DNA of 64,000 nucleotides from the NCBI GenBank assembly GCA_022478985.1, contig JAKSZP010006627.1:1-64000 (forward strand). Reading direction: 5' to 3'. Source of the DNA: Massospora cicadina. Its lineage: Eukaryota; Entomophthoromycota; Entomophthoromycetes; Entomophthorales; Entomophthoraceae. Below the pieces are notes generated by a model. That model was not told where the DNA came from and ran no database searches. It saw only the letters and a list, made by a program, of their open reading frames with translations. Made by a program: the position numbers and the translations under genes. Below, in pieces: positions 5,041-63,614 of this stretch; position 1 is the first letter of the stretch; each line of letters opens with the position of its first letter.

Positions 5041-6640
5041 ACCCACCCTTCTCCAGCACAAAACCTAGTTTGTGTTGACTAGATTAACGCCAACTTCCCC
5101 CGCATGGGATGGCGGTGTACCGCCTCCTGGTGTCTATTGGATGCCACCAAAACACCCATGAGCTGGCCCAGCTAGCTCTAAAAAAATTCAGGATGCTACG
5201 TCCCACCTTTTTCCTATCCCACCACCTCACATGCTTCAAGCGGTGCTCAGAAGCCCCCTGGTGCTCCCTCAGGTCAATCTGCATTTTAGCCTTCAAGTCA
5301 AGTATGGATCATCTTCCTCTATGTGAGTGCGGCCATCATTGAGATGGCCACAGCAATCTATAAACCCACCAGTTAAAGGAAATTATCCTCTTAAAGGGGT
5401 ACTTTGATCTTGGCTTTTCTTGTGAAGCGCATGCCATGGCAGCAGAAAAGCTGCCTTTAATATATAAATATACCCTAACCCACCCATATGAACTCACTTG
5501 CCAGATGAGGCCAAACTGGTGGTCCAGTTTTTCAAATTCCCACCCGCCTCTCCCCCTGAACGTCTTTGCCACAAGCTCACAGAGGGCTTGGCTGTCTACG
5601 GCGCTGTTCCTGTGCCATAATTCATGATTCCATATGTGCTAATTGTATTGATGGGCCTTGCGCATTTGCTATGATCTACCAATTCTGTTAGGACACCCAC
5701 CTTGTGATACCTCCCCGCACCATGATCAGGTCAGCCCCTGATTACTCCTTCTGGGCATGCATCAAAAATATGCGCGATCTGTATAGTTTGCTTCAAACTT
5801 GATCATATGAAGTGCTAATGCCCAGAAGATTCAGTGAAAGCTGCTTTTGCCGTTCCTCCATTGGCATAATCCCAACTAATGTCTTTACTAACTCTTTTGA
5901 ATGGGGATAAATTCTCCCTCCACCACACTTGAACACTGTAGTGGCTGCTCCCACAACTCTACCCAATCAAAGTTTGACTGCTATAACCATTCCTGAGCAG
6001 ATGGCTGCTCAGGTATCAGAAAATTTGCTGTGGTCCACTGTGAGTGGCCAATCAGCTTCTGCCACCCCACCAACTTCTGTCTCAGGCTCAGAGATGGCTG
6101 TGTCAAATACATTTGACGCCCTTGAATGGATCAATCATGATGGAATTCTTTACAGAATTAAACCTGATTTTGCCTGGTTGGATTTTTTTACTCAACACCA
6201 CAATTAAACTCCCCCACCAACTCCAACTTTCTCCAAGCCCTCCATATGGTAATTGAGCCACTTTTACAAGGGTTTCCCCATCCTGAATCTCAGAAGTGAT
6301 TTCTTTGAATATGTCAAGTTTATTATTGAAGAGAAAAACATTTGCAGCTGGCTGTGAATGCATTGATGTAGTGAGATCTTTGCTATATGAACCAAACTAC
6401 CCCCAAACGTGACAAAAAACTAAATCATTAATTGTTTGTCCAATTGTATCACCTTTTCTGAATTTCAATTCGCCCTATACATTGAGGTGATGCACACTGC
6501 TGGCCTCAATGATTTGGAGAACCCCCACCTCTTTCTCCTTCTGCTGCACGCCGCTGATACTCCCACCCCTTTTTGTCTGGCTTTGCCCGCCACCTGAAAC
6601 TGGTGATATATGAAAATCCCCTGACCCCTCATCCAATTCT
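5041..6640 (+). mobile_element. LINE ORF1 relic, copy 1
   Basis: GC-rich island of broken plus-strand coding sequence. The segment 5090-5620 aligns in order with 61800-62310. Both encode a block around P-W/L-V/C-S/L-P/R-Q/S followed by a Phe-rich stretch and then a block with HPPLPLNVFA against THLPPEVLHQ. In the better-kept copy that region lies upstream of a CCHC zinc knuckle, so this is the N-terminal part of a LINE ORF1 nucleic-acid-binding protein. Downstream, 5929-6200 encodes a Pro/Thr/Ser/Ala-rich linker-like stretch (TVVAAPTTLPNQ). The CCHC itself was not found here. No endonuclease or RT follows and no LINE 3' end is visible, so the copy is truncated or was ORF1-only. Confidence 0.55.
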
Positions 6641-6721
6641 AGAATAGAATCTTAAGCTAACGCCGTGGCATCATGCTAGGATTTTTTATCTAACTATCCC
6701 TTTATTTAGCACCTCATAATA

Positions 6722-6771
6722 AAGATGCGTGGAAGACCACCCTCTTGGGTTGGGCACCACTAGTACTAGAA
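6722..6771 (+). repeat. Candidate micro-retroinsertion d (no TSD seen)
   Basis: Ends in CTCTTGGGTTGGGCACCAC then TAGTACTAGAA, matching the 3' ends of the three TSD-flanked micro-insertions at 10463, 20114 and 52205. The upstream part GATGCGTGGAAGACCACC also loosely matches the longest of them (GATCTGTGTATCCCCC). No flanking duplication could be found, so its 5' boundary is unknown; it may be a longer or older copy. Confidence 0.45.
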
Positions 6772-6772
6772 C

Positions 6773-8760
6773 ATAGTTTGATTGTAACTCAGTTGACGCT
6801 AAAATCTATTTTGACTTAACCTAAGAGGCCTCCAATAATGGGACATTAAATAAAAAAATTTTATGTGGCTTTCCCAAGGATGTGACTCCCCTTGATTTTA
6901 TGCAATTTAGATAAAGTTGTTGATAAATAGATTGACTATAGAAATAATTATTGGAACTTAATTTCATAGGTGTAAAGCCTTAGTTACAGTCCAATTAATT
7001 GAAAAAACTTTAATTAAGCCAGTCAATTATTCAACAGAAAGTAAAGCATAATAGGTGGCATGAGGTTATAAATGGAACGAATAGAGATTCAAACATTGAA
7101 TATAAACTTGTACTCAACATCAAGATGATAGTAAGTTGGTTCAGGAATTCTTCCCTATCTCATTGGCCAGTGGATCACTAATACGGCGATTTATCTAGTC
7201 TCCACTCCGTTGTGAACTTGGTGATATTATGGAAATAAAATTAGTGCTTTAGAATATAATAATATTGATGTTTTTGGGCTTTATGATCCTTAAAACATTG
7301 ATTGATAAATCAACAATAACAATGATTTCAGGCCTTAGGCCCAATAAAGCATCAGATATAAATCAATATATATATATATTGAAACCCTAAAGTCAAAGCT
7401 TCACTTAAAAAAGAGTAAATTTTACCACTATTCTAAGCTTTAACTATGTACTGGGATTTTAAATATAACACCTAGATAGTTTGGAGATCTTTTATTTAGG
7501 CTTTCCACTTAGAACTAGATTAAAGTTATGTTGCAAAATAAAAAAATCAACAGCATCACTATATGATGTCAGTTCTTATCTACCTATAATTTTAATAATA
7601 CCAAGTGGTAGAAGAAAGATAATAGAACTTAGATAAAGCTTTTTATAAGTTGAGATAAGAATTATGTATAACAATCATATCAATACTTGTTATCACATAA
7701 CAGTACAGTCAAAGATATTCAATATTTTTATTTACTTTGTTATATTGAAGAGCTATTATAAAGAAGCAGGCTTCAATTAGGCTATCATATGGATCTAGTA
7801 TATGTCTATTTATCAAAGTTTTGATTTTACTTATTAAAGAAACACAAGCTAAAATCTAGATTTTAGTATTTAATTATAATAAGAATGTATACTTATAACA
7901 CTAAAGTGCAAACAAAATGGTAGGATGATATATAAAAATTATTTTGAGGTGGGTTGACTTTGGGACAAATATACCACACCGAGAATTTTGCTAGCTAGTA
8001 CAGGTTTAAAATTTGAAACCTGCACTAGAGTGGAAGCAGTTTTACCTGCCAGGCTAACCACCCTTGGTAGGATTATATATACTTTGAATAATTATATATG
8101 TGATTTTATATGTTAAGACATCTTTGTACATGTATATTAAATAAGTTATGGCATAATCTATAACTTACTATAGAACCTAGAGCATGACTTACTAATTTCT
8201 ATTATTTTTATAATCACTTAGTATTGAATTTTTTTTAGTAATAAGTTTAATTAAAATCTAAAAAATGAAATACAACTAAAAGTATAAAAATTCCTGTTGT
8301 ATTCTATAAAACTATACCAAAGTGAACCTATGTTGTTGTGGATTAACAGATTTTTATGTACAAGAAATCTATATACTATATAATTAGTATCTAGCTAATT
8401 ATATATGTTAATATACCTTTTTTGTAGAAATGGTCCCATCCCAAAAGAGGATCATTGCTGTATCAAATACAATAGCTCCCAAGAGATTAAGGTGAGGGAT
8501 ATGGATGGAGAAGTTGGCAAGAAAAGAAAGGAAAATACTTGCTATATCTGTGCTTCAATCATACTGAGCTAGGGAGGGCTTACAACATAGTACATATATT
8601 CAGGACATCTCAAGATGTACCTGGAAGTGGGTGATTAAGAGAGGTACTGTCCACAACAGATTATCAAAGTCAACATGTTGGAATGAGTTGAGAATGCTCC
8701 ATATAGGTGTGGTATAGGTTAAGTATTAAATGATACTGGTGTTATCTGGTAGGGACTAGC
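6773..8760. other. AT-rich stretch without genes
   Basis: No open frame of interest. A short TA run lies near 7365-7380. An isolated GC-richer patch at 7950-8075 has no recognised match. The ACTAGC immediately before the LTR at 8761 may be one half of that element's target duplication. Confidence 0.55.
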
Positions 8761-10170: not shown

Positions 10171-10339
10171 GAGCCACATAACTGACTCTACTAGGAACCA
10201 GCCCACCAGAGCCAATCCCAAACCCATCTGCTGAGTTCCGTCATTTCCACGTGCCCTCAAACCCCTGTCCACATGTTGTAGGAGGATACCGAGTAACATG
10301 CCAACGCCACACCATGCCCACTATTGGAGCCCATATCTT
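10122..10339 (+). repeat. Right LTR of the non-autonomous element, first part
   Basis: Starts TGTAACGAACAGG and matches the first 220 or so bases of the left LTR. It stops at CATATCTT, the LINE target site. It continues at 15802 after the LINE. Confidence 0.75.
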
Positions 10340-10446
10340 TTTATTTATTTATTTATTTGAGGATGGCCAACCAGGGGACTGACACATCTGATATGTAGGG
10401 AAAAGGAAAGTAAAAGAGGGGAGAGAACACTAAACAACAGAACATG

Positions 10447-10510
10447 AAAGATAAGACATGGTCCTCTTGGGTTGGGATCATCTAGTACTAGAAAAAAGAT
10501 AAAACATGGT
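10447..10510 (+). mobile_element. Micro-retroinsertion b: 32-bp insert with 16-bp TSD
   Basis: AAAGATAAGACATGGT (10447-10462) and AAAGATAAAACATGGT (10495-10510) flank a 32-bp insert, CCTCTTGGGTTGGGATCATC then TAGTACTAGAAA. The duplications agree at 15 of 16 positions. The insert ends in an A tail and lies in the 3' part of the LINE above. Insert 3' end and duplication length match micro-insertions a and c. Confidence 0.75.
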
Positions 10511-10580
10511 ACACTTGAATGTGGCTAGGAGCCACAGGTTGTGGATGACTATGACCTTAAGTGACATGACAGCTCAAGGG

Positions 10581-13287
10581 CTAGTAGGGTGTACCGCCTA
10601 TAGAGATTGTGAGGTTTTCAGTGTCACAACGAAGGAACCAGACTGGTAGCCAGTTACCCATCTGTTGCTTCCATTTGTGTTGTAGTGATCCAAATAGCCA
10701 GGCTTGGAAGTGGTCATCCAAATGGCTGTGGAACCTGACGATAGCTTGGTTGATGTTGTGAAAAATCCCGTTAAAGGCATCAAGGGTAATTTTGTGAATG
10801 GACCATATTGCAATACTCACAAATAAAGCCCTTAGCATCTAAGGGATAGGTGAGCTCATGTTGAATGCCAGGATGTCACGGTATAGTCGGAATTCAGCTG
10901 ATGGTGATTGCTTAAATAAGTACATCACATTGGCACAGATATGCTTGGACGGCGGGCACTCTTCCAGGTGGTGGGCTAGCATGTTGGGTCTGCCAAAGAT
11001 GGCGAATGATTGGAACATTGAGAAGGTGCGGTCAGCTGTCCTAAACGTATGGCGCATGTAGCGCCACACTGTGGAGCTCACTTGTGGGGATAAAAGGGGA
11101 CAAGTGCTGAGGTCCCACACCTTCCTTTGGGTGCGCAAGTCATATGGGACGTCTTGGTAATCTAGATAGTCGATCCAGGATAAAGGAAAGGGTGGTAGTG
11201 AGGCAGGTGCATTGGTCACAGTTTTTCCTCTGTGGAGTCACATATAACCTATTGGAGGGTTATTATCTTCGGTTTACTGTGCATAGGAGAAACTCCAATC
11301 CCCTTGTCTTAGGGTGTACAGGACGCGTTTGAAGTAGCGGTTGGTGTTATGCGGTCCTATGGCTGTTGGATGTGTTGTTAGGTACTTCATCAGTGTTTCA
11401 GGGTTGGAGGGTACCTCAGATGTAGTGCCCTTGCGAAGTTAGTTTGGGCTGCCTTAGCCCAGCGAGGAGATGATGGTTTGGGTGACGTTGTCAGAGCTAT
11501 CCATGAGCCAAGGATTTGCGTAGCTCGTTCCATGAAGTTGATCAGCCCCATCCCGCCTTCATTCCATGGGCCGTACATGGTCTCCAGCCTGACTGGTGCG
11601 CGGTATCCAGATTACAGCCAGTTCTTCAGGAGCTTGTAGACTGCGTTGGTGAAGTTGGAGGAGAAGGGAACAGCGTGAGCAGCAAACCATAACTTTGAAA
11701 AGATCAGGGAGTTGGCTAACACAACCCTTATGGCTAAACTAGCTTTACTCCTCCACATACTTGTCATTCTTTTTGTGATGTTGTTTGATATTTTGGTTTT
11801 AATGGTGTCAAGTGCATATCCACCAGCCTTGAGCCATATTCCCAGATAACAGACTGAGTTGGTAGCGGGGTGGGGTGTGAAGGTTAAACACAGTGGTTTT
11901 ATTGGCTTATATCTTTGTCTTATGGTAGGAGTGCGGTTGGTTGGTTTGGTTAATGGTGGGAGTGTGAGGTTTAATTTGAACTGAATTTACCCATTACAAC
12001 TACCTCTGTTTTCTGTTTGTTCAGCATGACGTTGCTCACTGACTCATATTAGTGAATAATGCGCTCAATTGCTCTGGCATCCCTATTGCCTGAGACTCTG
12101 ACTACGCAGTCATCAGCAAAGGCGAGCATTTTGGATGGTAGTTGGCCCTTTAACCTGATTCCAGAGAGATTTGAGTTTACTATGCGGAGGAGAGGGTCAA
12201 GGCTGAAATTGTATAGTAGGGGGCTAAGCGGGTCGCCTTGTTTAAGGCCCCTTTGTGGGGTGATGGTGTCAGTTAGGAAACCTGGGCCTCAGATTGCAAA
12301 CCTGGCTGAGAGCGTTAGGAGAAGCGCCCAGTTTATAAAGCGGGGTGGTAGGTTGAAGGCCTTTAGACATTGTTCCAAGTAGTCCCAGTGCACTCAGTCA
12401 TATGCTTTCTTTTGGTCCAGGAAAGCAAGGGCGCCTGTGGGGTTAGCTTGGCAGATGTTGGCTATGGTGTGAATGTTATCTCAAATTAAGTGATTGGGGA
12501 TAAAGCTAAACTGATGGGAGGAGAGGGCTGTCTTTGCAATGCAACCCAGACGCTTAGCTAAAATTTTTGTTAGCATTTTAGTATCAGTATTGGTGAGAGC
12601 AATTGGACGCCAGTTGTTTAGGCCTGCCTGATCTCCCTTTTTAAAGAGTGTTCACATATGCATCTTGGCCGCCAGGTAGAAGGGCTTTGTCCTCCAGGCA
12701 CTTGTTCATAGTTGCCAGTAGTACTGGTGCAATGTAATTAAAGTACTTTTTGTAAGATTCATATGGAAGGCCATCAGGCCCAGGGCACTTGTGGCGTGGA
12801 GTTGATTTTATTACGTCCCATAGTTCATCTCTAGTGATGGGTTTGACAAGGTCTGGTTGATCAGCTATATTGTCAATATTAGCAGATGATAAAAATTTTC
12901 CAATTTCGCTAGGTGCCGCAAAATTCGCCGTGTACAGGTCAGTGTAAAATTGGTGTAATTTGGCCAATATATCAGATGGTGTGGATGCCAGTGTGTCATA
13001 TGCTCTTGGACCTATGTGCAAGTCGCCAAAATCAAAATTGGTTTAAAATGGGAGAAGAATTGGGCCATGTGAGTTTCGCTGGATAGAATGTATTTTGACT
13101 TGTAGCATACTTTGATGTAGTGCTGGTGTTTTCTAAAGAGGGAGTTGACCTGTGCAGACAGTTGGAACCACAGGCGTCCCCATTGAGGACTGTATCCCTC
13201 GTGAGGTGTGTTGTTTTCTAAGTGCTGGAGCTGTCTGATAGCCTTGCTGATTGTCACGGACATTGCGGCCAGCTTTCTGGAGTTCAA
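10581..13287 (-). pseudogene. LINE ORF2, reverse transcriptase and C-terminal region
   Basis: The conserved RT block CPGPDGLPYESYKKYF lies near 12790-12740. The catalytic FADDCVVRV motif is visible on the minus strand at about 12125-12095 with both Asp residues present. Downstream are NEGGMGLINF (near 11550) and a C-terminal block with IHKITLDAFNGIF and FHSHLDDHFQAWLFG (near 10800-10680), both matched by the truncated copy at 34239-35420. Stops and frameshifts are spread through the region, so no product is expected. Confidence 0.7.
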
Positions 13288-13356
13288 GTTACAGGCTTTC
13301 TTGGTTACTCTAGCCTTAAAAATTTCCCACTTGGCGATATGGTTCCCATTGAGTGG

Positions 13357-14216
13357 TCAATTTTTTGTCTGTGTTGTTAGCACCATCTCGATCCAAAGTT
13401 TAAGCTCCAGAAGATGGATGGTGCTTGAGTGAACTTTGTGCCAGGTCAGTGGCTTTTGGTATTTTTCCGCGGATGATAACATTATTGAAACCATTTGGTG
13501 AATGGAGAAAGGAACAATTGTTGTTGTAAAATTCGATACACGGTGTTGGAAGTCTACAGGGAGGAGCATCAGGTCAATCCAGGTCATTGAGACCAGCTGG
13601 TTATTGTTGTAGTGGGGCCTCGTCATGTTGGCCAACGTGGTGGCCTGTTTGGGGATAGTGTCATACAGGCCCAGCGTTGCCTTTAGTATGTGTAGTTCCA
13701 TGTGGCCGCAGGGTATAGCCTTTGATTTAGGCCAGCGGTCAGTTATGGCGTTAATCCAGAAATTGAAATCTCCCGCGAGAAACGTTGCCTTGGTGAAAGG
13801 GATCAAGAGGATATTGGAGAAAATTTTTGGCAGTTGTTTGGATCATTTGGGGCATACACACATGCCACAGTGAAAGTTTCTCCGTTCCACTCAAAATCCA
13901 TTAGAAGCAGCCATCCCTCCAGGTGGGAGGATGTGCTTCAGATATTTATTGGAGGATTATGGTTAGATCAAATTACCACCCCACAGTGGTACATCCAAAA
14001 GGATTTAGCTGGAAGGAGCATGGTCGACCATGACTCCTCCTCCCCCGGTGGACAGTGGGGTTCTTGGACGACCAAGATGTCCATGGGGATATTGTGCAGG
14101 AAAGCCATTTTTTTGGCCTGGGACGTGGGGGCCTTGGCTCCTGCAATGTTGATCATCCCTATGGTGATTGCAGTAATTTGCACATCAGGAATGTTGGGGC
14201 GACTCACTGGGGTCAC
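13357..14216 (-). pseudogene. LINE ORF2, endonuclease domain
   Basis: APE-type endonuclease, which nicks the target to prime reverse transcription. The start reads TIGMINIAGAK (the N-containing first motif), then DILVVQEPH carries the catalytic Glu motif (QE). About 110 residues on come TFLAGDFNFWIN (the GDFN motif) and then WIDLMLL. The expected C-terminal SDH motif is degraded to FSIHQ. The domain is split by a frame change near 13870-13960. It lies directly upstream of the RT in the usual order. Confidence 0.65.
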
Positions 14217-14855
14217 CCCATTCCCTAGCAGTGCGGGTCATACTATGAGTTTGGGGCCAATCAGCCAGATTGGTTCCAGCATGTTGATCAGCGGTCATAG
14301 TATTGGTTTTGTTTGGTTTCTTTGGGCTCAGATTACTCCATGGAGTTCAGCTCTGGTGTGGGTTCTATTGTGCCCCATTAACATAAAATGACCGCTGCTT
14401 ACCTGTGGGCTAGATGTGCAGAAACTAGGTGTCAGGGTAATTGGGTTTTGTGCAGGAGCGTTATTGTATTGTGATTGGCTGGGATGATCTTCCATATCAT
14501 ACTCATGAACCACATTATCGCTGATCACATGTGATTGGCTAAGAGGATCCACAGTGGTGCATGGTGGTTCTGCTTCAGTGTGGTTGGAGGCATTTAATTG
14601 GTTGAGTTTGAAAAATTCATCGCTTTTGATTTTGTTGGTTTTATGTGGGGGATCTGTATGTTTATTTCGCTGCGCTGCTATGGCAACCAACTGAATCTGG
14701 TCTAAGGAAATCGTGGTGAGAGCTTGGGTCTCAATAGAACTTGCAGCCTGCTTGCGGGTAGCCTGTGTGCAATGACAATCCTTGCACAAAATGGGTTCGA
14801 CCAAAGTGATTTTGGCTCTTTCGCCCCAATGGAAGGCATAAGTGGCGTCCTTCAT

Positions 14856-15722
14856 TTAGCTGAAGGTTGGGCTCATTTTTTCTATATTGTCCTCACAAAA
14901 TTCCGGTGCTTCAATCCTGCATTTGACAGGGCACACATGGTCTTTGTGGCCTAGAGCTGAGCAGAAGCCGCAGATAGGCAGGGTGTGTTCTGGTGCGATG
15001 TGGAAGGGGCGAGATATGCTGCCATCAGGGAGGTTGATGGTCGCCATGCATGGAATGAGGTGATATCCTCTACCACGTCCTGGTCAGGTTCAATAATGGC
15101 TATTGCCTTCCCTGTACACAGGTGAGGTAGGAGGGGGAATTTTCATATTCAAATTGTTTGATTTCGCCATAACTTTTGAGGCCCGCATGGAGCTCATCCT
15201 TGAGAATTTTATGGTGCACGGTGCTTGGGAGTCAGTCAAATAAGATGAATAGGTCATTTGCCTCATTCCATCGTGTATGCGCCATGCGGATAATGCGATC
15301 TTCATTGTTAATTTTAACAGAAAATTTGGTTTTCACTGCATCCGCCACTTCCTCCACAGTCATGAACCTGACATCCACCCATCCTCTATGTAATTTTTAA
15401 AATTTACTGAAACGGTGTTCAGGAAAGTCGCGGAGAAGGCCTCCCCCATTTTTTCCCACAACTCAAGGGAGGTATTACTGACCATAATTCTAAGGCCGTT
15501 CTTGAGGGAGGACAAGGGTTGGGAGTGTTTGATTTTTATGAAAGCGCCCATTTTTTGCAGAAATTGCAAAACTCCAGGTGTTGCGCTATGCTCACCCTTT
15601 TTTGGGGGAGTTTGTCCCAATGTACTTCCAAGGAATTTTTCCCCAACGGGTTGGGTGGGCTTAGGGCCTTTTGCGCTGGTCACTTTTGACCAACTGGCTT
15701 TGGTGTGGATGAATCTGCTCAT
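14856..15722 (-). pseudogene. LINE ORF1 (CCHC nucleic-acid-binding protein)
   Basis: Begins at 15722 (MSRFIHTKASW), Lys/Ser/Thr-rich at first, then continues through frame changes. The key element is a zinc knuckle CGFCSALGHKDHVC at about 14970-14920, spaced C-x2-C-x4-H-x4-C. LINE ORF1 proteins bind the element RNA and act as chaperones during target-primed reverse transcription. The frame is broken at least twice (15305-15090 and 15047-14856 are in separate frames), so it is a pseudogene. Confidence 0.65.
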
Positions 15723-15801
15723 TTTCCTAATTGATTGTCAAATTCAGATAATTTTTTATAGAATCGTGTTACTTTTAGTGATAGTAATGGGAAAGAAAAG
15801 C

Positions 15802-16209
15802 TCAGAGCCCATGTCTTCTAATCTGATTATTCTATTTAAAAATAAAATATTCTTTTCTACTTTGCAACCAAATCTTTATTTGATTTTCAAGGGTTATCAT
15901 AGAAGACATAACTGGCTATTCAAGCCAGCCTATCCTCAAATATGTAGTGCATTTGCAAATATAACATAGGCTTTCCACTATGCCAAGCTCTCTTGAACCA
16001 TCCAGCACATCTTGGGAAAAGATTCCATTCCCCAAGGAATATTCATCCAAAATGCTTGTAAGTCCAATGTCATATTGACTTGGATGCGATTTGGCTTTGG
16101 TCCATCAAATTTCCCTCATCTGATTCCTTCTCATTCAGGTTTCTTCTTATATTTGGATCTAGTACTAACTGATCCATAGCAATGTATTGATCAGGTACTA
16201 CCTGATCCA
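15802..16209 (+). repeat. Right LTR of the non-autonomous element, second part
   Basis: Continues the LTR after the LINE and matches 8972-9370 through ATTCTATTTAAAAATAAAAT to the end CTGATCCA. The first 16 bp are the LINE target duplication. Confidence 0.75.
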
Positions 16210-18999: not shown

Positions 19000-20240
19000 A
19001 TCTGCGTTTTAATATACCATAACAGCACGGTGTACAATGGTAAAGTAATAGCTTTGTAGCCTTAGAGCTCAACAGGTCAATCAACCATCATGTTCCTTCA
19101 TTTGTTGAAGCCACTTTAGTGATGTGTTGTCAGTGATGATGGTAAATTGGTTCCCATATAAATAAGGCAATAAGTTCTTATTTACTATTAGTATAGCCAA
19201 ACACTCTCATTGGATGACCCTGTATTTATGTTCAGCCTTTGATGAAGTTTTGCTAAAGTAAGTTAAAGGCCTATCCATTTTCTTCTCGTCTAGTTGGGAA
19301 AGAATAGCCCATGAAAACATCACTGGCATTGGTGGATAGTATGAAGGGTTATAAATTTTTGATGAAATAAACCAGGCTGAGTGACTAGGGCTGTCTGAGG
19401 TCCAATAAAACCTGGACCTTCTCAAAGTTCCATTTTAAGGGGACGTTCTTATGCAGTAGGTACACCAGAGGTTTGGTAAGGTCAGCAAATCACAGTAAGG
19501 ATTGCCTATAATACCCCATCATACCTTGGAACACCTTTATGTCCATAAGACTATGGGTAGTGTCGTCTTTTCTATTGAGATAGATTTTTTGGGTAAAGAT
19601 TAAATTCCTCACTATGTGACCTTTTACCCAAATAATTCCATATCTGGATAATAGGTTTTTATTTTGAGGGTTCAAGTATCTGAGTTGCCACTCAGAGTTA
19701 ATTAAAAACCTAATGAAGGTGCTCTATATGAACATTATAAGTTTTTAGATGACAGTAATACCTTTGAGGTATTCAGGACGCAGGACAACTTCAAGTCACC
19801 CAGGAGTCCGTCCACAGCACGTTGGAATGTGGAAGGGGCATTACATAGCCCTGCGCATGCAGTTTGTTCAAATAACCTCAGGTTCATGATTAGGCGCACT
19901 TGGCTCAATCTTTGGGTGCTAAATTTGATATTCCAGTATCAGATAGCTTCTACATTGCTGAGAATACTGGGCCCAAGCTAGGAGCCATAAAGAGTCATTA
20001 ATTTGTAGGAGGAGAACTATCCTTCCAGGTCACTGAATTGTGCTTACAGTAATCCATAACGACCTGATGCTTCACATTTTTTTCTAAACAAGAGAAGAGG
20101 AGACGCCAGGGACAGATCTGTGTATCCCCCTTTAGGTTGGGACCACCTAGTTCTAAAAAAGGAGACGTCAGGGACGTTGAGAAGGCACCAGCAATCCTGA
20201 AGTTAGGAACTCTTTAATCTCAGTATTAACTTGGGCCTCT
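19000..20240 (-). pseudogene. Gypsy F reverse transcriptase and RNase H relic
   Basis: RT begins near 20230-20180; micro-insertion a sits inside the segment equivalent to the SPWASP motif. The next blocks are VVMDYCKHNSVTWKD (about 20060) and a palm segment down to 19700; the YxDD motif is not visible. RNase H is clearer: ILSQLDEKKMDRPLTYFSK and SKAEHKYRV at 19330-19207, then TIITD and SLKWLQQMKEHDG near 19140-19070 and NADGLLRML near 19000. RNase H degrades the RNA of the RNA-DNA hybrid. Numerous stops. Confidence 0.65.
20098..20175 (+). mobile_element. Micro-retroinsertion a: 46-bp insert with 16-bp TSD
   Basis: AGGAGACGCCAGGGAC (20098-20113) and AGGAGACGTCAGGGAC (20160-20175) agree at 15 of 16 positions and flank a 46-bp insert. 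The insert begins AGATCTGTGTATCCCCC, continues TTTAGGTTGGGACCACC and ends TAGTTCTAAAAA. It lies inside the gypsy F RT: deleting the insert and one duplication restores the expected coding colinearity, so this is a true insertion. It is the longest of the three. Confidence 0.78.
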
Positions 20241-33300: not shown

Positions 33301-34238
33301 TGTGTGGTTAGGGTAGCCTATTGCGACACCCATGAGTTTGAATGAAGAAATAAGCTGGACGTTTTATTTTTTATCCATTAAAGTGATCGCCATGACGGCA
33401 ACTGATGCCTACACAATTAAGAATATTATGGATGGTCGTGTAGAAAACCAGGGCATACAAAATATCTTAAGTGTTGGATCTAAGAGAGAAAAAAGTGCAA
33501 TGTTCCTGAAGGACCAATGAGCCTAGAAAAACAGGTCAAGTCCTAGAGTTGTTCAAGTCCCTGGCGGAGGCCGCTGAACCAAGATAGGTGATTAAGTCTT
33601 AAAATAGACCTCTGAACCATGATAGCTGGTTAAGATCAAAAATGCAGTACTGATCCAGTGCAGGAGAAATTAAAAGATGAACATCTGAACCTAATAAAAG
33701 GTTAAGTCCCATTGCAAAAATACAACATAAAGGGAAAAAACCAAAAAAGAATATAAGATAAAAAAGCATTTTAAAAAATTATATAAAAATATAAAAATGC
33801 AAAAGACATTAAAAATTTGATTTTTATAATATTCACCAAAAAAGCAACTGGTGGTGTCCCCTTATGTCATTGGTAGGACCAACTCAGGTTAAAACTTGGT
33901 TCTGCCGCGAGTAGTCCTGAGGCGCTGAGAGAAGCAACACACATTGGTAAAATCAGGACGGCTTGAAACTTTATTCTTCAGGAGTAGTCCCTTAAGAATT
34001 GAAGCCCAGACTGGAAATACATGGAACAAGGAATCAGAGAAGCCGCCTGAGAATATCCTTTAAATGACAAGGTGTCATAAGACCCCAAACTGGGGAAAAC
34101 AGGTTTTCCAGACCTTTTTATTGTCATGAACAACTGAACTATTCTGGAATGGCATGTGGCCATGAGAAACGCGCTCTGCAGAGGTGGCAGTGAGGAGGAC
34201 GCAGAATGGAAACGCACAAAGAAGAATACTAAACCAAG
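33301..34238 (+). other. 3' region of gypsy A, little recognisable
   Basis: From 33540 the sequence is a low-complexity, A-rich tail-like region (33720-33840) and then a GC-richer patch (33840-34222) with no protein match on either strand. It ends at the LINE target site AAGAATACTAAACCAA (34223-34238). Confidence 0.4.
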
Positions 34239-35420
34239 TGGCCTTGGACCCGCCACTTATATGGGTGGAAACACTCTTTGGCCCACGTTCAAGTGGAGGC
34301 ATGGGCCTAGTGGACTTTAAGGTCCACGCCAACCTTATACTGGGCACCTGGATAAGGGAAGTCCTTGCCCCAGAACTCCCGCAACACTGGTCCAGAGCAG
34401 CGAGGGCAAATTTGCACAGGCGCTAAAACTATCAAACCCACGCAACCCATCCAGTCTGCTCACATACCTCGCAAACCACCCCACTGCAGTGGGACCTCAT
34501 GGAACTCCCCCACACTTCAAACACCTCCTCTGCACCATTCAACACATGGGGTGGACCATCACACTCACAGGCACTAGTCAGGGAAGGGGCAGGCCCAGAG
34601 CCCACTTTACGCTAAGGAACCCAGAGGTCAACCCCAGAGGGACACACACAATGTGGCCCCAGACATAGCAATAATAGACTACCTGGATGCTCTAGACATC
34701 CCATATGACCTCACACAGAAGAAGGCAATATGGAAGCTGACACACCATCCGCTCCTCCAGCCAAGGGTAAGAGTAAACACATGGCGCTGCTTTAGAAGAA
34801 CCTAAAAAAACCGCAGATCGCACCAATTTTCTTCATGAAGAGTGCGCAGTGTGTGGAGGGGATGGCACCCTACACCACCACCTTGAAGAATGCCCCTATC
34901 AAGAGCCATATGGCGGGAAGTTGCGCGCCTGCTTAGGATCAAAATAACCAGGAATTTTCTATCTCCAGGTGCCTCCTTGCACTCCAGCTCAAATCCCCAA
35001 TACCACCTACACTCTGATCCCTAATAGTATCCATCGCAATGTGGACAATCCACACCATTGCTTTGGATACGTTTAAGGGTACCATACCAAACATCCATGG
35101 AATAATCAGTAGATTTCACGTTCATCTACCAGAACACTTCCAAGCCTGGCTTTATGGAAACATGAAGCCAAGGCAGCAAAGGCTCATAGAGTCATGGTTC
35201 CCAGTATTTTTCCACACATGGACCCCTTCCTACACACCTGCTCCATAACAGGGGAAATCCCCTCAGAGTAGTGTACTCAACACCCCACACCTGGTATCAG
35301 CTGGTAATAGGGGTAGCTCATCTACTCTTGGGTGCCTAATTCAGCTCCACTTCGCCTTCCCCTTTCCCCTATATTTTTTCAGTATTGCTCGTCCCCTGGT
35401 TGGCTTGCCTCAGTTAAATA
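34239..35420 (+). mobile_element. 5'-truncated LINE with perfect 16-bp TSD
   Basis: 1,182-bp insertion in gypsy A. AAGAATACTAAACCAA flanks both sides (34223-34238 and 35421-35436), 16 of 16. It encodes only the C-terminal end of ORF2: RSSGGMGLVDF (near 34300) and IHTIALDTFKGTI with FHVHLPEHFQAWLYG (near 35050-35160), matching the LINE at 10340-15801. The 3' end GTCCCCTGGTTGGCTTGCCT followed by CAGTTAAATA is the family's 3' terminus. 5' truncation, AT tail and duplication are the signs of target-primed reverse transcription. Confidence 0.85.
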
Positions 35421-39639: not shown

Positions 39640-40102
39640 TAGTATCAATGTCTTAGGCCCTCTATCCTTGGAATCTAATGGCCATTGTTCATTTTACTGG
39701 AAATTGATCATTTTACTAAATGGATTAAGGCCATATCTCTTTATTCTGCTTCTGCCAAAGTTACTGCCTCATTTGATATAGTTGTATCATCACCCAACAT
39801 GGATTTTAGAATATTTTTATTGGACAATGCGAAAAACTTTTGTTCATCACTGGTGCAATAATTAAATACCTTAATGGGATCTAATCAAATGTTACCACCC
39901 CTATCAACATGAAACTAAAGGGATAGTAGGTCAAGTTAATGCTGCTTTAATATCAATCCTTTAAATATGGTCTCAACAAACCCCTAAATTTGCCACAATA
40001 ATGAAACAGTGCAATTCTGGCTTGTCAAAATAGATATTATTTTTATAAAATTTCCACTTTCTAAGCTTTTTATGGAAAAATACTCAATTGCTCTTCAAAG
40101 TA
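39640..40102 (+). pseudogene. Gypsy E integrase core
   Basis: Blocks equivalent to HFTKW near 39710, the DNAKNF catalytic-Asp block near 39825, and the segment MGSNQMLPP to YQHETKGI near 39880-39920. Interrupted at the TA target at 40101; the likely continuation (SKY then MLDRVSTKTFEV) lies on the far side of the mariner. Confidence 0.55.
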
Positions 40103-41432: not shown

Positions 41433-41434
41433 TA

Positions 41435-42090
41435 TAATACATGTTAGATCGTGTATCAACCAAAACCTTTGAAGTTACCATGATAGCTATTTCTAAGGAG
41501 ATCAATTGGCTTCAGGCTCTGGCCTTGGTTGATTTGTCTAATTTACCATCAAAGAACTAGTCAGTTCATCAGCAAAAATTTCCCCCTAAATACCTTCCAG
41601 CTAGGTCATTTAGTCCTCTTTTAACATCAGAGGTCATATTAAAAACGATAAGATAGCTTTGATTTATTAGGACCTTACAAAGTCAATTATAAGAGGGGAG
41701 AATGAACATTTGTTTTGTCAAGGCTATCCAGGGCATTGTGGTAAATTGGGTACATAGCAACACTTACATCCCTTTACCACTACGTTGAAGTCTAAAAGGG
41801 CGCGTTGTCAGGATTACAGCCCAATCTGAAGACCAATTACCTTTGATAATGAAATTTGAAACCAATCTGGAAAAACAATAACTTCTGACATTAGGATCAA
41901 ACCCAATCCAAAAGATATATTACCTCTACTTAAAAAAGCTCATAAGATCCCTCCTGAATCTTAGGAGAACAAATAAGATTAAGTTACTGTCTTAGAAGTT
42001 CCTGAAATTTACATTTGAAAAACTGGTACGCCATCCTTTATAAATGTCGCTATTTTTGAATCAAGCGAATATTACTTGATATTATTTGGG
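41435..42090 (+). pseudogene. Gypsy E, 3' coding remainder
   Basis: Continues after the mariner with MLDRVSTKTFEVTMIA and then degraded sequence. An LTR was not found. It ends before the LINE ORF1 relic that begins near 42190. Confidence 0.4.
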
Positions 42091-42189
42091 GTAAGTCGAC
42101 CATGGAATGGACATTACTAAAGCTTAAAAGAGCTAAACTAAAACTAAAAAAAGGTTGAAACAAGACAAATGGGTACTTGTACTGACACC

Positions 42190-43900
42190 ATAAACAAAAC
42201 TAAAATAATCCAGCCAAGTCAGAAGTGGTAAATGCCATACAAACATATCAGAGAGTGAAGGGGGATTAGGAGGTCCTTCATCTATATATAAGGTAGACTG
42301 GGTGGCATAAAGCTGAGAGCAAGGCATGGGTTCATTGCGGAGTAGGGGTCAAGGTAGCAGATTGGGACTTTCAATTTGATCTTTGCTATTAAAAGGTGGC
42401 AATGTACTTAGAAAGGGCTTTCTCAGCATCAAGCCGGACTTTGGGAAGGATGGCAAAGGTGGCAATAACGTTGTAGGTGATGAGGGTCTTAAAATGAACT
42501 TTGTGACTGCCACAACTTTTTGCACCACTTTACTAGTCCCCTGAGAAGCGGTGGTTCTCTTTCCTGTGTATTAGGTGCATGGTGGTGGGGAGTTCAGGAG
42601 GGAAGGACCCTCATCAAATATTGTGACTGATTTCATAAAGGCTTTTTAGAGGGGGCAACATTAAGGGGAGGCAAATGCTCATGTAATTTGAGGTCACTTT
42701 AAAATGGGTTAGCATCAGAGCGGAGGCATAATGACAAGATGGTAATTGGGCTGCATACTCTGAATAAAGCTACATTTTTAGGGTGGAGCCTTAAAAATTT
42801 TGTGACAGGAATACCCAATATATCAAACTTCTAGAATTAATCTCATGGATATTGGTTGAAGATGCTAAGGCTATCAGCAAATGGGTGAATTGAGGTGGGT
42901 GAATTGGTAGGGGTTTTATATTTGCTGAGGTCCAATATGATCCCTGATTGGCTGGTTCATAAGAGAAGTCTTGGTGAGAGGGCACCTGATTGGTTGAAGA
43001 AGAAGCAGCTGCAACTAACGTCTTGAGGGGGATGGAGGATTGTGCCCCATTCAAAAAAGTAGTTAAGTTGGTGATGGGATCATCATGAGAGGAGTCATGT
43101 GTGGGGGCCATAACTTGGGCAATGTAAGGGAAACACCATTTCAAATGGTCCAGTTTGAAGAAGGTGAGAAAGATGGTGCGCCCTCTATTCACTCAGGCCT
43201 GAAAGGATAATTAGGGCAGAAGGGATATTGGTATGAGGAGTAAACAAATGGAATTTTAAGTTGAAACAGGGTATATAGTTGCAAAGGCGCGAGAGCCTGC
43301 GAGTCAGGAGGCTTCATTGGGAACCACTAATTGTAAAATGGGTCATAACCTTTGCTTATAATCTGGCAATATGAGATATAGAAAAATATTGTGTGGAGGG
43401 TGGATAGGGAGGCATGAGACCTGAACAACTAGAGTGGTATCTGTGGGAAACTGGAAAATGAGTGGGTGGGAGAGGAGTGCCCTGGAATACCAGGGGAATG
43501 GTTGCTGCTAATGCAGCATCAGCTTCATGAGTGAAGGTGAGATCAAAAGACCCCTTGAAGGGGGGAAGTTGATGAAGCTGGCAGGCTGCATTACCACCTG
43601 TACTAATTTAATAATTGCTTATTATATGGAAACAATTTGTCATATTCTACCCAGAGACCAAATCACATGTTGCTCTAGGGGAGCAAAAAGAACTGCAAGG
43701 TATCACATGCGTTTGTGCAATGTGGAGAGCTGTCCTTAGGCTGAACAAAGTGACCAGAAGATATGAGAGGGCTATCAGAGCCAGCCTGAGTACGTTCTTG
43801 GCAATGGACAAAAAACATTAGGAGGTGGCACATCACTGCCCTGAGAAGGACAGCGAGCATGAAGCTGATTAACATAGTGTATATTATAAAGAATTGCAAC
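42190..43900 (-). mobile_element. LINE ORF1 relic, copy 2
   Basis: Minus-strand relic aligning with the ORF1-only LINE at 61678-63598. Sequence at 43560-43400 matches 62105-62250 (both begin around TCACC.T.TGAAGCTGATGC). GRTIFLTFFKLDHLKWC near 43190 is the zinc knuckle with both first Cys changed to Phe or Thr (intact copy: TICPSCFELDHSKRKC). A C-terminal block (IATFAILPKVRLDAEKALSKY near 42430) resembles KIATSVKLLDARMKAELSLANY of the other copy. 43660-43700 corresponds to the 61950-61985 region. No RT follows. Confidence 0.6.
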
Positions 43901-44289
43901 AAGTGAAGTTGCTCTACAAAATCAAACTAATATTTAACCAAAAGGCTGAATTGAGAGAGATGTCTAAGTGACAATAGTTAATTTCCAGTATATTTAGTTG
44001 TCGTGTATGACTAGCTAAACTCATAAAAATTCAACAGATAAGGACAAAGTTTTCTCAATTGTAATTTTAAAAAATCCTTTTGATATGGTCTTTGTGTACC
44101 CAAACTATTAATTGGTGTTGAATTTTAGCTGATGGTGCATGCTAAAATAAATTATAGGGAAATTGAGGATATAGACTCACTTATGTTTATTCTTACTTGT
44201 AATTGAGAAGGTAGATTCTATAATATTTCACAAAAAAACCAAGTACCTCAGGTAATCTCATCATTCTAATGTCTGCTAGCTACAAAAAT
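43901..44289. other. AT-rich spacer, no recognised feature
   Basis: Only short frames, none similar to a known family. Confidence 0.5.
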
Positions 44290-45620
44290 AATTTTAAGAC
44301 CTTCTGTCTTTGTAAACAATAGGAACCTCTCCTACACAACTAGGACTACTTCTTCGGCAGGAAAAGAAGCTAATTACTTCTCTTTAGGAAGTATAGGCAT
44401 GTGTACCTACTTAACAGATATTGATAACCTTCATTAAACAAGTATCAGATAGGATATATAACAGTGATAATAGATGATGAATTATTAGTTGGCCAGGTGC
44501 AGGTAATTTATACCTCTCAGGCATCTCCTGGCTATACTCGTCTATTAAAGGAGCTCATCTATACCATACTAGAATCATATGCTGGTCATGGCAAAAGCTA
44601 TGGATACTTTCTTCAAGTCAACTCAGCCCTTGAATCGACTTAATGAATATCATTTTAGCCCAATTGAGAGGAAAATTATCCATATTTAGTAATCTTTATG
44701 GTGCAATATTGGCACCAAAAAGATGTGCATTTGCCCAAGGTCAGCTCAATTAGAGTTTCGCCATACAGCTGAAAACAGTAATTAGAGGAAATTACTAAGC
44801 AAAATGATAATTGATGTATCCCTAAATGGGTCATTGCCAGAACTCCTAATAACACTAGATACTCCTTGTTGGGATATCCATGTTGGGTGCATAACATGCC
44901 GATTATATTTAATTGACATAAAATTCTGGCTCAGTACATATTACTGATTTAGGACAATTTGGTGCAACTTAATTATTTCATAAGACCCACATGTTGTATC
45001 CAAGGGGACCTCCTAACTGGGCATAGCTTATTATGTTATAGCTAAATATAGCATTGCTAGTTGAGAAGTGTGCAAGATAGTTAAGGCGGTTCTGGATGAA
45101 CTAATATATCAGGATTATGCTGATAAATTTAAAAAATCAGAGGGATTGATTAATGGGAGTAACCTATCAGCATTGATGATTTTCTCAAATGGATTACTAT
45201 TTGAGACAATCGCCAAATTTTTGCATTTCCCCACTTGACTGGAATTAAGCCCTGATATTCCCAATTAATTATCATTCCCATCAGTAGCTCCACCTCTGTC
45301 TATCGCCGTTACTTAGAAAATCTTAGTACAAAAGAGCAACATCAATTTTTGTGTATGCCTCAGATGATAAGGCTTCAAATTGTCTGTGGTTTCATGCGTG
45401 CATCAGAGCTTGGTCAATTCATCCCTGTGTAAATTATAGTTACTTTAATTCATTTATTTACATAGTGGAGTAAAAGTTATTATCCATAGAACTGCTGACC
45501 ATTTGGCCAATTTAACTAATCATGGGCTACGTTCATGGTCCACCTTTTTTCAGGAGGTTGAACTTTTAGCTTGCATTCCTAACTCTGAGCATCCAAACCT
45601 CTTGGTAAGGCTACTTTAGG
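44290..45620 (+). mobile_element. DIRS-type retroelement, copy 1
   Basis: The stretch 44450-44600 aligns with 63690-63830, where the frame reads YLDDVLLTSQAPVSYTQHLL. This is a reverse-transcriptase palm of the DIRS type; here the same block is decayed (IIDDELLVGQ). Downstream, 45280-45420 reads SSTSVYRRYLENLSTKEQHQ and then IVCGFMRASELGQFI, resembling the start of the tyrosine-recombinase domain (FMRxxEL includes the first catalytic Arg). RT followed by tyrosine recombinase, with no DDE integrase, defines DIRS elements. The terminal repeats were not found. Heavily stopped. Confidence 0.55.
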
Positions 45621-45699
45621 GTGGAGACCTCTCAATTGAGTAAATCTTCATCCTCAATTATTATTTTCTATCTTAGGACTATTCAAAACTTAGGCTCAG

Positions 45700-47010
45700 A
45701 AAATTACCCTCAACATGGCCATTGTTCAAAGGAATTTAGGCCAAACTTGAACATCTTTTCAGCTCAATCTGGAAGACTTTATCTGAGGACACTTCCATCT
45801 GGCCATAAGATCTTCTTCAGGAGGAGGCGCTTGCAGAGGAGGTGCTTGATTCCTGTACATTCTCACTTGAAAATTGTCCTGTATATTCTTCTTTTCTGGG
45901 TTTAAAACACATTATGTGCACAATGTGCATTTCCATCTGACTGGTAGGGCTGCTTTTAAAAAATTTATAATGACAATATGGGTGATTATCCGCCAAAGAT
46001 GGTGTCATAGAGCTTGTTGATTAACTCTGACCAGCCTGGAGCCTTGATGGGTGCACTTCAGAACCCCAGCCATAATACCTCAGGTATAGCTATCTATATT
46101 GACAGATGGGAAAGGCAAAAGGCATCCGTAAGAACTAGCCAGGGATACCCAACAATGAAATAATCACCACTAGATGTCTAGCAGAACTCTTAAACTCAAA
46201 AAAAGTTGGGGTGATATTTAAGGACTTTTTATTTAAATAAAAATGGTGGAAAAGGGAAAAATGGAGCAATAGCGTAACTTGTTGGAAACTGCTGCACTAT
46301 TTGTTTGCTTTATATAAACTGGGACTAAGTGCAATAATGTCAAGAATAGCTTGTGATTAGACTATGGAGGATTAACTTTTTTAAATAATTCCAATTTCAA
46401 CTCAGATCTGACCCTCCCAGATCGTTTGATATCAAACAGCTGGTTAGAATATTCATATTATCACAATTGCACATGGTGCAATGGCGATGACTCCTCTGGC
46501 GGGAAGCAGTTTGCGCCCATGGCCAGGCCACATATGACCAGTTCCATTTAGTAAGGAAGGGGTTTGTCACGCCCATACCTGTCAGGGATGGGCTCATTCA
46601 TAATACCAAAGGCGGGGAAGAGCTATTGGAAATTTTAAAGTTCAAGAATGACTCAATCAATTTAATGTCACCAACCACCAATTAATTAAATTTTGTAATA
46701 CCTTAACTTATTGGAGTCCACCTCTTGGGGACATAAACTACTCGTCTTCTTCTAGCAATGGCTACTAACCACTGCCACCTCCTGACACACCTTCTTAATT
46801 TTACCCACTAACTTTTAGGTTGTGAGCATAGGTGGAAGAGGCGCAAAAATCAGGGGATACACCATTACCCATCTCTCATCTACCACATGGGTTAGTTACA
46901 GGTTTTAAGAATGAAAGCTGCCAGTCTTTTTCCCTTTTTTTGTCTGAAATGGGTATTTCTCCTAATCCAGCCTCTGGGGCTGTTCCCAAAGGCTTACGTT
47001 ACCCTTCCCT
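45700..47010 (-). pseudogene. Family X copy 3
   Basis: Minus-strand relic with X blocks: a KKGKK basic patch and THVVDERWVMV near 46910-46870 (against THVVDEHWVTS), MGVTNPFLTKWNWSYVAWPW near 46570-46510 (against GVLNPFPTKWTRPYVGWPW), and a final block LWLGF to LINKLYDTIFGG near 46060-46000 (against LVFWVL to FCHFHDTIPDKLAGW). Stops are frequent. It abuts the 3' end of chromovirus B; whether that junction is an insertion edge is unclear. Confidence 0.5.
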
Positions 47011-52188: not shown

Positions 52189-52236
52189 AAAGTGAATTTT
52201 TCAACCATCTAGTACTAAAAAAAGTGAATTTTTCAA
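52189..52236 (+). mobile_element. Micro-retroinsertion c: 16-bp insert with perfect 16-bp TSD
   Basis: AAAGTGAATTTTTCAA occurs at 52189-52204 and 52221-52236, 16 of 16. Between them is only CCATCTAGTACTAAAA, identical in its first 12 bases, apart from one position, to the 3' part of micro-insertion b and ending in an A tail. Inside gypsy C. Confidence 0.75.
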
Positions 52237-61677: not shown

Positions 61678-61704
61678 AACTCTCTTTCCACTCAGCGTAA
61701 CTTT

Positions 61705-62736
61705 ATGAGCAAATTATACAGAAAACAAGAAAATAAATTTGAATCATCCGCCATAGTCTGGCTCCAATGTTCACAGATTCTCCTCCAGCTGTTCCAGTGT
61801 GGTGCAGCGACAAAACTCCCCCACCATTTTCCGTCCAAAAGGAAAATGCGCTTGGACTGGCTCTCCCAGTCATACCAAACCCTGAGACGATTTGTTCCTC
61901 CCAAGGATCTTGACGCCCACCTCGCAGGAACCCAAGTGGTACCCCATCGCCCCCTGGTGCTCCCCCAGAGCAACACGCATTTTGGCCTTAGGGTCAACTA
62001 TTAAAAACTTTATCCATACCATGACCAAGCCATTATTGAAATGGCTCAGGCAGTGATGCGTCACGCCAGTTTTATTGAATTCCGCCCCTATAAGGGATTT
62101 TTCAACTCAGCTTCACCTGTGAAGCTGATGCCGCCACTGCAACAACTGTGCTCCTGGTTTTCCAGGATATCCCTCTCCCCACAATTCAGACCTGGCACCC
62201 AGTGGATAACACTTTAATGGTTCAGTTCTCTGGTTTGCCCACCCACCTTCCCCCTGAGGTGCTCCACCAGAAGCTGATGGAAGGTTTGGCAGCCTATGGC
62301 TCTAACACCATCTTGTAATTTGTGGTCCTAAATGGGCCACACGCCTTACTGGCCTCAGGCATATGCAATAATCAGCCCTGAATCAAATAAAATTGCCCTG
62401 TCGATTCCCCCTCATGCCATTATCCCCTCTGCCCCCAACCATCTGTTCTGGACCCACATCGAGGGTGGACGGACGATCTGTCCATCCTGTTTTGAATTGG
62501 ACCACTCAAAACGCAAGTGCCCATCCATAGCTGCTACCAATGGCTCTGATTTTTCGTCCACCAGCTTCCAATCCACCGCCCACCCCACGCCAGCTTTGGT
62601 ATGGGGTATGACCCTACATCTCCCTCCCCCTAAGCCTGTTGCTGCAGCTGTGCCAATAGCCACCAATCAGCCTCCTTCTCGCCTCAGCGCCACAAACGCT
62701 CCATCCAATCAAGCACAGGATTGGACCCCAGTTTGA
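61705..62736 (+). pseudogene. LINE ORF1 with CCHC zinc knuckle
   Basis: Two main frames (61705-62004 and 62332-62736) joined through a frame-changed middle (62100-62320). The second carries TICPSCFELDHSKRKCPS, spaced C-x2-C-x4-H-x4-C, near 62475-62525, then a Pro/Ala/Thr-rich tail. The N-terminal part is basic (FPSKRKMRLDW). RNA-binding ORF1 role inferred from the knuckle and LINE context. Confidence 0.65.
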
Positions 62737-62819
62737 TCCCATGCATCCTCTAACAAACCAACAAACATCAGTAATATGCTGACTTCCCAAATCAATTCAA
62801 CCAAAATCCTTGAGATCTA

Positions 62820-63437
62820 TTGGCTGAAATTGATGAGTCCAGGAATATAATTGAAGGCCACAATATACAAATTGAGTGGTTTATGTTTATCTACCAAGAC
62901 GTTGATCTACCCCCTCATTTATACGCCCCCATCAAAATGCCAAAATGTTCCGTGGCAACTACCAGCTGGCTGTTGAAGCAACGGCCAAACCAGATTGTCA
63001 TCCTCTCCGCAAAGCTGCCGCCAAATCAGTGGTGATTCTTGCAGGAGGAATCCCTCCTCCCTTTGTTTCCTCCAAAGCCAATAAGGTATGAATAAATATG
63101 TTGATAAAAGCCCACAAAGGCGCCAATGACACCATCCGGCATGTGGCAGTGGTAGCACAGAATTTCTGAATCAAAAATATAACCTGTTCCAAAATTGCCA
63201 CATCTGTAAAGCTACTTGACGCACGCATGAAAGCTGAACTATCTTTGGCAAATTACGTCAGAAATCTTATGTATAATGGCTATATTCCTACCACCCCAAC
63301 CATCAGAAATATATCTCAACATCCTGCTGATTCCCTGATGCCCCTGCTCTCCGCTGTAGCCCAAGCCCTGCTTTGGGATGAAGTAGAGGCTGAGGATGAG
63401 CCCCCTGATACCGCCTCCCCTTCCGCCATGATGATAT
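62820..63437 (+). pseudogene. LINE ORF1 C-terminal domain, unrecognised
   Basis: Nearly continuous coding-like sequence (two stops and a frame change) after the zinc knuckle, ending in an acidic DEVEAEDEPPDTASPS tail and a stop at 63437. Contains KIATSVKLLDARMKAELSLANY-type helical sequence (no more than weakly matched in copy 2). I do not recognise a fold. Confidence 0.45.
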
Positions 63438-63614
63438 AAGTGGTTCCCGCTGTCCCACCTGGTTGGTTGAGTTTGCGTTATATGTGTCATCCGCTCATTT
63501 TGGGCGGTTTGTTCGTTTTATTAAGTGGGGATTTATTTTTAGGTTTTGAGTTTTGGTAATGTCTGTCCCATGGTCAGCTTACCTAAGTTGAATAAAAAAC
63601 TACTTACCTAATCT

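Follow-up and report, generated by a model that had tools for sequence, protein, structure and literature searches.

Very short inserts with a common 3' end and target-site duplications appear to be LINE-type retroinsertions in the fungus Massospora cicadina

What kind of process leaves a piece of only 16 bp, ending in an A run, between two identical copies of a 16-bp target site? The question is raised by a locus of Massospora cicadina lying in a 64-kb stretch of DNA, hereafter the window, where the micro-insert m52 (CCATCTAGTACTA plus an A run, 52205..52220) stands between a left duplication at 52189..52204 (AAAGTGAATTTTTCAA, 16/16) and its right copy at 52221..52236, all on the plus strand. 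A preliminary description of the window had placed two more such inserts at 10463-10494 and 20114-20159, and all three were found exactly there, with lengths of 32, 46 and 16 bp for m10, m20 and m52, respectively, and with 16-bp duplications matching at 15/16, 15/16 and 16/16 positions, as it had said. Both of the other inserts are likewise read on the plus strand. The 46-bp m20 (20114..20159) lies between duplications at 20098..20113 and 20160..20175 (AGGAGACG[C/T]CAGGGAC, 15/16) in a Ty3-type pol region in minus-strand reading, a host assigned because its DNA resembles that of the 50-52 kb copy, and the 32-bp m10 (10463..10494) lies between duplications at 10447..10462 and 10495..10510 (AAAGATAA[G/A]ACATGGT, 15/16) in the 3' UTR of the LINE that we call LINE A. 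The common 3' end claimed for the three inserts is present in all of them, but the "RACCAY" form given for it fails at m10, since that copy reads GATCATCTAGTACTAG. When the window was scanned blindly for direct repeats matching at 15/16 or better and abutting an insert of 8-60 bp, five pairs came up, namely m52, m20, m10 and two from one tandem repeat, the three inserts being 3 of the 4 independent short duplication pairs, while 50 first-order Markov windows gave a mean of 0.06 pairs and a maximum of 1.

The sequence read comprised the window together with positions 1-210000 of C1 and 1-90000 of C2 of the same genome, the extra 300 kb having been picked by number and not by content, and amounted to 364 kb of 1.47 Gb. 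With T2 standing for a 3' end that reads GGGACCAYCTAGTACTA and continues in an A run, we found 12 independent micro-insert events in these 364 kb (three in the window, nine in C1 and C2) that have in common the T2 3' end, variable 5' starts, inserts of ~9-46 bp and duplications of 14-20 bp. The duplications adjoin the insert at both ends in 12/12 events with 0-1 mismatch, a complete score that follows from how the events were called. The pair scan used 13-mers with at most one mismatch and gave 650 rows on both strands, 15 of which enclosed no more than 60 bp and had AGTNCTA followed by A or G at the end of the insert, and these 15 rows become 12 events once the strands and one duplicated locus are merged. 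Run on the same pairs of the 364 kb, 150 permuted-letter motifs averaged 0.41 rows with a maximum of 11, and the high-scoring control motifs presumably overlap the palindrome TAGTACT.

As measured by the pair scan, the C1 inserts are of 8 bp (78385, minus strand), 9 bp (177924, minus strand; a segmental copy at 184337 was left out of the count), 14 bp (177631) and 20 bp (175950), those of C2 are of 16 bp (49564), 19 bp (11542, minus strand), 26 bp (14640, minus strand), 33 bp (55000, minus strand) and 45 bp (31386), and those of the window are of 14 bp (52205, or 16 bp by the boundaries of the preliminary description), 32 bp (10463) and 46 bp (20114). Because A's or single mismatches lie at some of the junctions, the lengths of inserts and duplications can be read a few bases longer or shorter, and the two shortest C1 inserts become ~12-13 bp if their duplications are taken as exact. 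Counted from the CTA end, the inserts reach 7 (or 9), 10, 11, 13, 15, 16, 16, 20, 28, 31, 41 and 42 nt upstream, where the 7 nt at C1 177924 needs one mismatch in the duplication and the overall range is otherwise ~9-42 nt.

The same picture was obtained from the motif alone, with no selection for duplications. The sequence CTAGTNCTARRA occurs at 15 sites in the 364 kb, 12 of which (11 events) are bare inserts flanked by duplications, so that the motif does not belong to a larger repeat everywhere, the finding that would have spoken against the original proposal; two other sites (window 6760 and C2 37064) terminate longer elements, and no convincing duplication was seen at the remaining one, C2 60324 (60334-60312). 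With CTAGTACTAAAAA, 9/9 sites in the 364 kb, representing eight events, are flanked by duplications (four in C1, two of them being one duplicated locus, four in C2 and one in the window). The genome-wide search for the tail proposed in the preliminary description gave 39,550 exact copies of CTAGTACTAAAAA vs 143 of the reversed control, and 32,347 exact copies of CCAYCTAGTWCTARAAA vs 1 of its reversed control. The density in the sequence read is ~1 micro-insert per 30 kb, and genome-wide there is one exact tail per 37 kb.

Several of the events sit in older repeats, and relatives of these repeats therefore display the site before insertion. The comparison covered 6 of the 12 events, two of them clean: for C2 11542 and C2 55000, the relative aligns cleanly without the insert and the second duplication. 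An insert-free relative also aligns at C2 14640 and C2 31386, where small matches are scattered through the gap, and the alignment is looser for m20 and m52; when the flanks of m20 are joined, the match to another Ty3 copy rises from 39.7 to 54.0 bits.

Are these inserts simply truncated copies of the resident LINEs? The preliminary description had held that the template differs from the local LINE, and this view is borne out, because the LINE tails carry another 3' end, T1 (about GTCCCCTGGTYGGCTTACCTCAAATAAA), which is common to LINEs, E elements and SINEs in the 364 kb, and the T1 profile misses the inserts. T1 was found in 5/5 LINE loci whose 3' ends were inspected (LINE A, LINE B, one in C1 and two in C2), with a sixth, weak reverse-transcriptase match (C1 197890) outside these five. 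In the window, LINE A (10340..15804, minus strand, ~5.46 kb, 12/13 duplication) is the target of m10, LINE B (34238..35420, plus strand, 1183 bp, 16/16 duplication) is 5'-truncated, two E elements lie at 61678..63598 (plus strand, 1921 bp, 14/16 duplication, ORF1-type by eye) and 42074..43919 (minus strand, 1846 bp, 13/15 duplication), and a SINE with a tRNA-like head by eye and a T1-type tail lies at 7935..8064 (minus strand, 130 bp, 16/17 duplication); the two LINEs and two E elements end in T1.

The T1 tail matched 28 times in the 364 kb, 16 times with a duplication of E <=2e-3, and 14 matches were counted as confident, two having been dropped before counting (C1 167215, a minisatellite, and C2 82706, AT-rich). 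The 12 matches below the duplication threshold were left out and include LINE A and the E elements at 61.7 kb and 43.9 kb, which are also long. The 14 confident T1 inserts measure 124, 130, 242, 277, 279, 286, 289, 290, 294, 1183, 1917, 1918, 3859 and 5255 bp, and this set is disjoint from that of the 12 T2 inserts of at most 46 bp (T1 124-5255 bp; exact 1/C(26,12) = 1e-7). A single 49-bp T1 insert, at C1 44941 with a weak duplication, turned out to be the end of a 1.93-kb E copy, and a loose T1 motif search was set aside as too permissive. Duplication lengths are alike in T1 and T2 events. With hand-set boundaries, 10/12 T2 duplications begin with AA vs 5/14 T1 duplications (P 0.02), a contrast that could mean a different endonuclease.

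The T1-tailed families can be described a little further. The E elements are ORF1-only, CCHC-type by eye and 1.85-1.95 kb long, with a LINE tail, and resemble half-LINEs; copies on C1 lie at 1470-3386, 93986-95900, 162168-164109 and 44905-46831, and a Pfam search with one E fragment gave no match. One SINE family of ~280-294 bp has the T1 tail, duplications of 15-20 bp and a head that looks tRNA-like by eye (GGTTCGATTCCCGC), as seen at C1 38219-38512, 186319-186597 and 7655-7943 and at C2 83751-84036. A second family of ~240-290 bp (C1 58607-58848, 153585-153874 and 175514-175790) and a third of 124-130 bp (C1 59616-59744 and window 7935-8064) also have tRNA-like heads by eye, and their tails resemble CCCAGGTCGGCCCACCTCGAATAAA. 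A small LTR element of ~2 kb occupies 8748-9370, 10110-10339 and 15805-16209 of the window, its second LTR being split by LINE A, which produced a 13-bp duplication (12/13).

Where, then, does the T2 tail come from? A fourth micro-insert had been suspected at 6722-6771 of the window; this has no convincing duplication and forms instead the 3' terminus of a longer, decayed element, E2, which is probably a single element at 5071..6771 (plus strand) ending in a T2 tail at 6739..6771 (plus strand). Positions 5071-5956 strongly match the E profile (E 2e-76 in 364 kb), positions 6459-6628 give a weak colinear match to it (7.7 bits, E 2.7e-5) only in a candidate-restricted search, and positions 6217-6768 match C2 36514-37072 over ~560 bp at 64%; C1 200609-200484 in turn matches this E2-like copy of C2 over 133 bp at 71%. 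An LTR origin considered for the 100-bp relative at C1 200484 was rejected, as the LTR match stops before it. Judged from these alignments, T2 forms the tail of an old element, since E2 copies match each other and end in T2, and E2 is probably an E-type, ORF1-only relative of the E elements. Its last 34-40 nt align with the inserts (blastn 82-83% for m20 and C2 31403, E 0.001-0.004), but E2 reads GGGCACCACTAG where the inserts carry GGGACCAYCTAG or GGGATCATCTAG; the young inserts have GGGACCAYCTAG there, so that no direct source of them was seen. The E2-like copy of C2 is possibly a 682-bp insertion with a weak 14/16 duplication (E 0.013), the sole hint of a longer T2 product, and because of this copy long products with the T2 tail may have been made in the past; the 364 kb showed neither a young T2 copy of any great length nor a LINE with this tail.

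A relationship between T2 and the T1 tail of the LINEs looked plausible by eye and was rejected as unsupported by the profile and not convincing by scores: the T1 profile gave no match to the T2 tail, and out of 8,628 null segments (segments preceding A runs), 42 attain the best of the 18 pairwise T2-T1 scores, which belongs to the E2 tail, and 104 attain the best for an insert. As this homology is not demonstrable, the enzyme of the T1 LINE acting on T2 RNA would be a candidate source only. A conserved tail hairpin, as a possible site of enzyme binding, was also discarded, its fold energies being no better than those of shuffles. The preliminary description had further suggested a SINE or a host RNA as template, and a Pol III promoter or an RNA match as its sign; neither tRNA nor Rfam searches gave a match above threshold in the window, one weak unrelated match (E 3.6) lying near m20, and the inserts are at most 43 nt long. 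Scans of viral contigs gave one chance phage match and, in two further scans, none, and prokaryote contigs gave no match.

Most likely, the inserts arise by target-primed reverse transcription carried out by LINE-type machinery, from a template that is slightly more likely to be short than long; we give this reading about four chances in five, and target-primed reverse transcription taken alone is well supported. Its signs, already pointed out in the preliminary description from the first copies, recur in the 12 events: a common 3' end, an A run, a variable 5' start and duplications of 14-20 bp. In the proposed sequence of steps, an endonuclease would nick the DNA in such a way that the duplicated site mostly begins with A's, an RNA ending in GGGACCAYCTAGTACTA-An (T2) would pair through its A run with the T's at the nick, which would serve as primer, reverse transcription would halt after ~9 to 43 nt, and joining of the second strand would leave the 14-20 bp duplication. 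The acting machinery would be the LINE-type machinery of the fungus itself, and we infer both the supplying LINE and the template. The earlier suggestion of a very short or nearly always truncated template is compatible with 12/12 events, and the two halves of that suggestion lead to different expectations about how far the copies extend.

One half would have the enzyme abandon a long T2-tailed RNA, an E2-like or T2 LINE transcript, usually falling off within 45 nt. E2 copies carrying the T2 end, matching over ~560 bp and perhaps 1.7 kb long, would provide such an RNA, the truncation points are scattered over roughly 9-42 nt, and the 12 lengths give a constant hazard of 0.07 per nt as an estimate without a fit test. 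The genome-wide block counts, which follow one sequence variant and are lower bounds, do not decay so steadily: blocks joined to the tail number at least 9,664 at -24, 7,574 at -33 and 6,226 at -41 (controls 0), and the loss per nt across successive blocks is 0.094, 0.027 and 0.025, a plateau. Loss thus drops from 0.094 to 0.025 beyond -24, yet about one-sixth of the copies (16%) reach -41, as do 2/12 in the 364-kb sample, and copies that reach -41 on a long template should run on, whereas the two found in the sample, m20 and C2 31403, stop at -41 to -43. In these block counts an apparent 5' end would also result if other subfamilies had another base at -42. The sequence AAACATCGATGAATCCCC occurs at least 2,654 times in the genome, and the AA that precedes -41 in the C2 copy, together with an exact GAATCCCC, is present in 36/100 among the matches listed at -41, where, by our own estimate, a uniform template that ran on should give ~95% and random flank ~10%. 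T2-like ends with inserts of 47-450 bp in the 364 kb amount to two rows only, an AT-rich 248-bp pair (C1 200066) and a 450-bp pair overlapping the C2 49564 event. Abortive copying of a long RNA is a possible reading that we hold to be less likely than not. A short derived template is slightly more likely, and a short RNA of ~43 nt is favoured because of the plateau in the block counts and the coincident 5' ends; because the shorter 5' ends are spread, early stops would be frequent as well. The young template would then be a short derived RNA of ~41-43 nt plus A's, an A-tailed RNA ending in CUAGUACUA, copied fully in about one-sixth of the events and partly in the others. Tentatively, and with odds that we place just under even, we would see here a family of retroposons in which the full unit consists of ~41-43 nt and an A run and is hardly more than a 3' tail that has become independent of the parent element; the family would number ~40,000 copies, and most of these would be truncated still further. 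If this unit is real, we know of no smaller independently multiplying retroposon.

Explanations that dispense with early-terminated reverse transcription fare much worse. Filler DNA at break repair, in which a short piece of a genomic T2 copy would be copied into a staggered break with no reverse transcription involved, might in principle put short inserts between duplicated overhangs, but 12/12 events have one 3' end and an A run that meets mostly A-starting duplications, and other short non-tandem pairs, such as C1 127803 and window 48566, lack such an A run or common end; we consider it very improbable. Slightly less credible still is the idea that full-length T2 elements were inserted and later deleted down to their last bases, because, despite the existence of old longer T2 copies, each of 12 deletions would need to halt precisely where the left duplication lies, and 124-5255 bp are retained in T1 inserts whose duplications are similar. 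Least probable of all, and next to nil in our estimation, is that the motif is a coding part of a transposon gene: a frame reading ...HLVL[K/E] runs through four inserts (the longest being PLGWDHLVLK), with third-position-like variation by eye among the first inserts, but duplications flank the bare motif, and in E2 the motif stretch lies, by eye, ~130-170 bp past the last codons that two copies have in common. As the motif in E2 lies beyond the conserved codons, the coding origin was dropped once E2 had been found.

How do the micro-inserts relate to known systems? The HAL1-type half-LINEs are presumably the counterpart of E and probably of E2, which are likewise ORF1-type, E having a LINE tail; E2, however, is a likely relative of the source of the tail and is distinct from the micro-inserts themselves. 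SINEs are likewise non-autonomous, mobilised by LINEs and provided with a shared 3' tail, but no tRNA, 5S or other head is seen in the at most 43 nt of a micro-insert, and local SINE inserts measure 124-294 bp. In tailless retropseudogenes the 3' ends are variable. These retropseudogenes of truncated tRNAs (Schmitz et al., as described in PMC3747384) are the nearest case to ours, being likewise short RNAs probably inserted by a LINE enzyme; they lack a poly(A) tail, in contrast to the micro-inserts, whose 3' end and A run are constant. The 5'-truncated LINEs, as represented by the well-studied human L1, share with the micro-inserts a constant 3' end with an A run, a variable 5' start and duplications of ~15 bp (PMC2912911). 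The published account of that L1 survey describes a duplication peak of 14-16 bp for full-length L1 and a preference for the target TT/AAAA, and collected insertions of 50-10,000 bp only; the micro-inserts, all of roughly 9-46 bp, form a size class outside it because of this 50-bp floor. The account of a maize survey (PMC2774510) describes the use of the last 30 LINE bases as anchors and a careful separation of SINEs from severely truncated LINEs. In the open-access literature searched, we recognised no description of micro-inserts of this kind.

As for the genome itself, published accounts give 1.488 Gb with 92% transposable elements, mostly Ty3 (PMC9584336), and 6.3% L1 LINEs; the main text of the paper on Entomophthorales genomes (PMC11105155) did not yield the word SINE, and its overview presents M. 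cicadina as effectively without DNA transposons. At 40101-41434 of the window there is an apparent decayed mariner-like element by eye, with 118-bp inverted ends of 81% identity, and one fragment of it gave no Pfam match. A 32-bp insert with a 14/15 duplication and neither T1 nor T2 lies at C1 127803-127864, and could be either another source of micro-insertions or a chance pair.

In summary, the genome of this fungus seems to contain LINE-type inserts of ~10-45 bases by the tens of thousands, far shorter than the adjoining retrotransposon copies, that is, a size class of retroinsertions below ~50 bp that the L1 survey excludes by its length limit (PMC2912911, as described there) and that repeat annotation would probably miss. 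Small changes made of an insert plus its duplication (~25-62 bp) could be mistaken for slippage. Given that T1 and T2 yield two separate product lengths in one and the same genome, 5' truncation, template length and enzyme processivity can be compared directly in it, and the micro-inserts would give tens of thousands of short markers.
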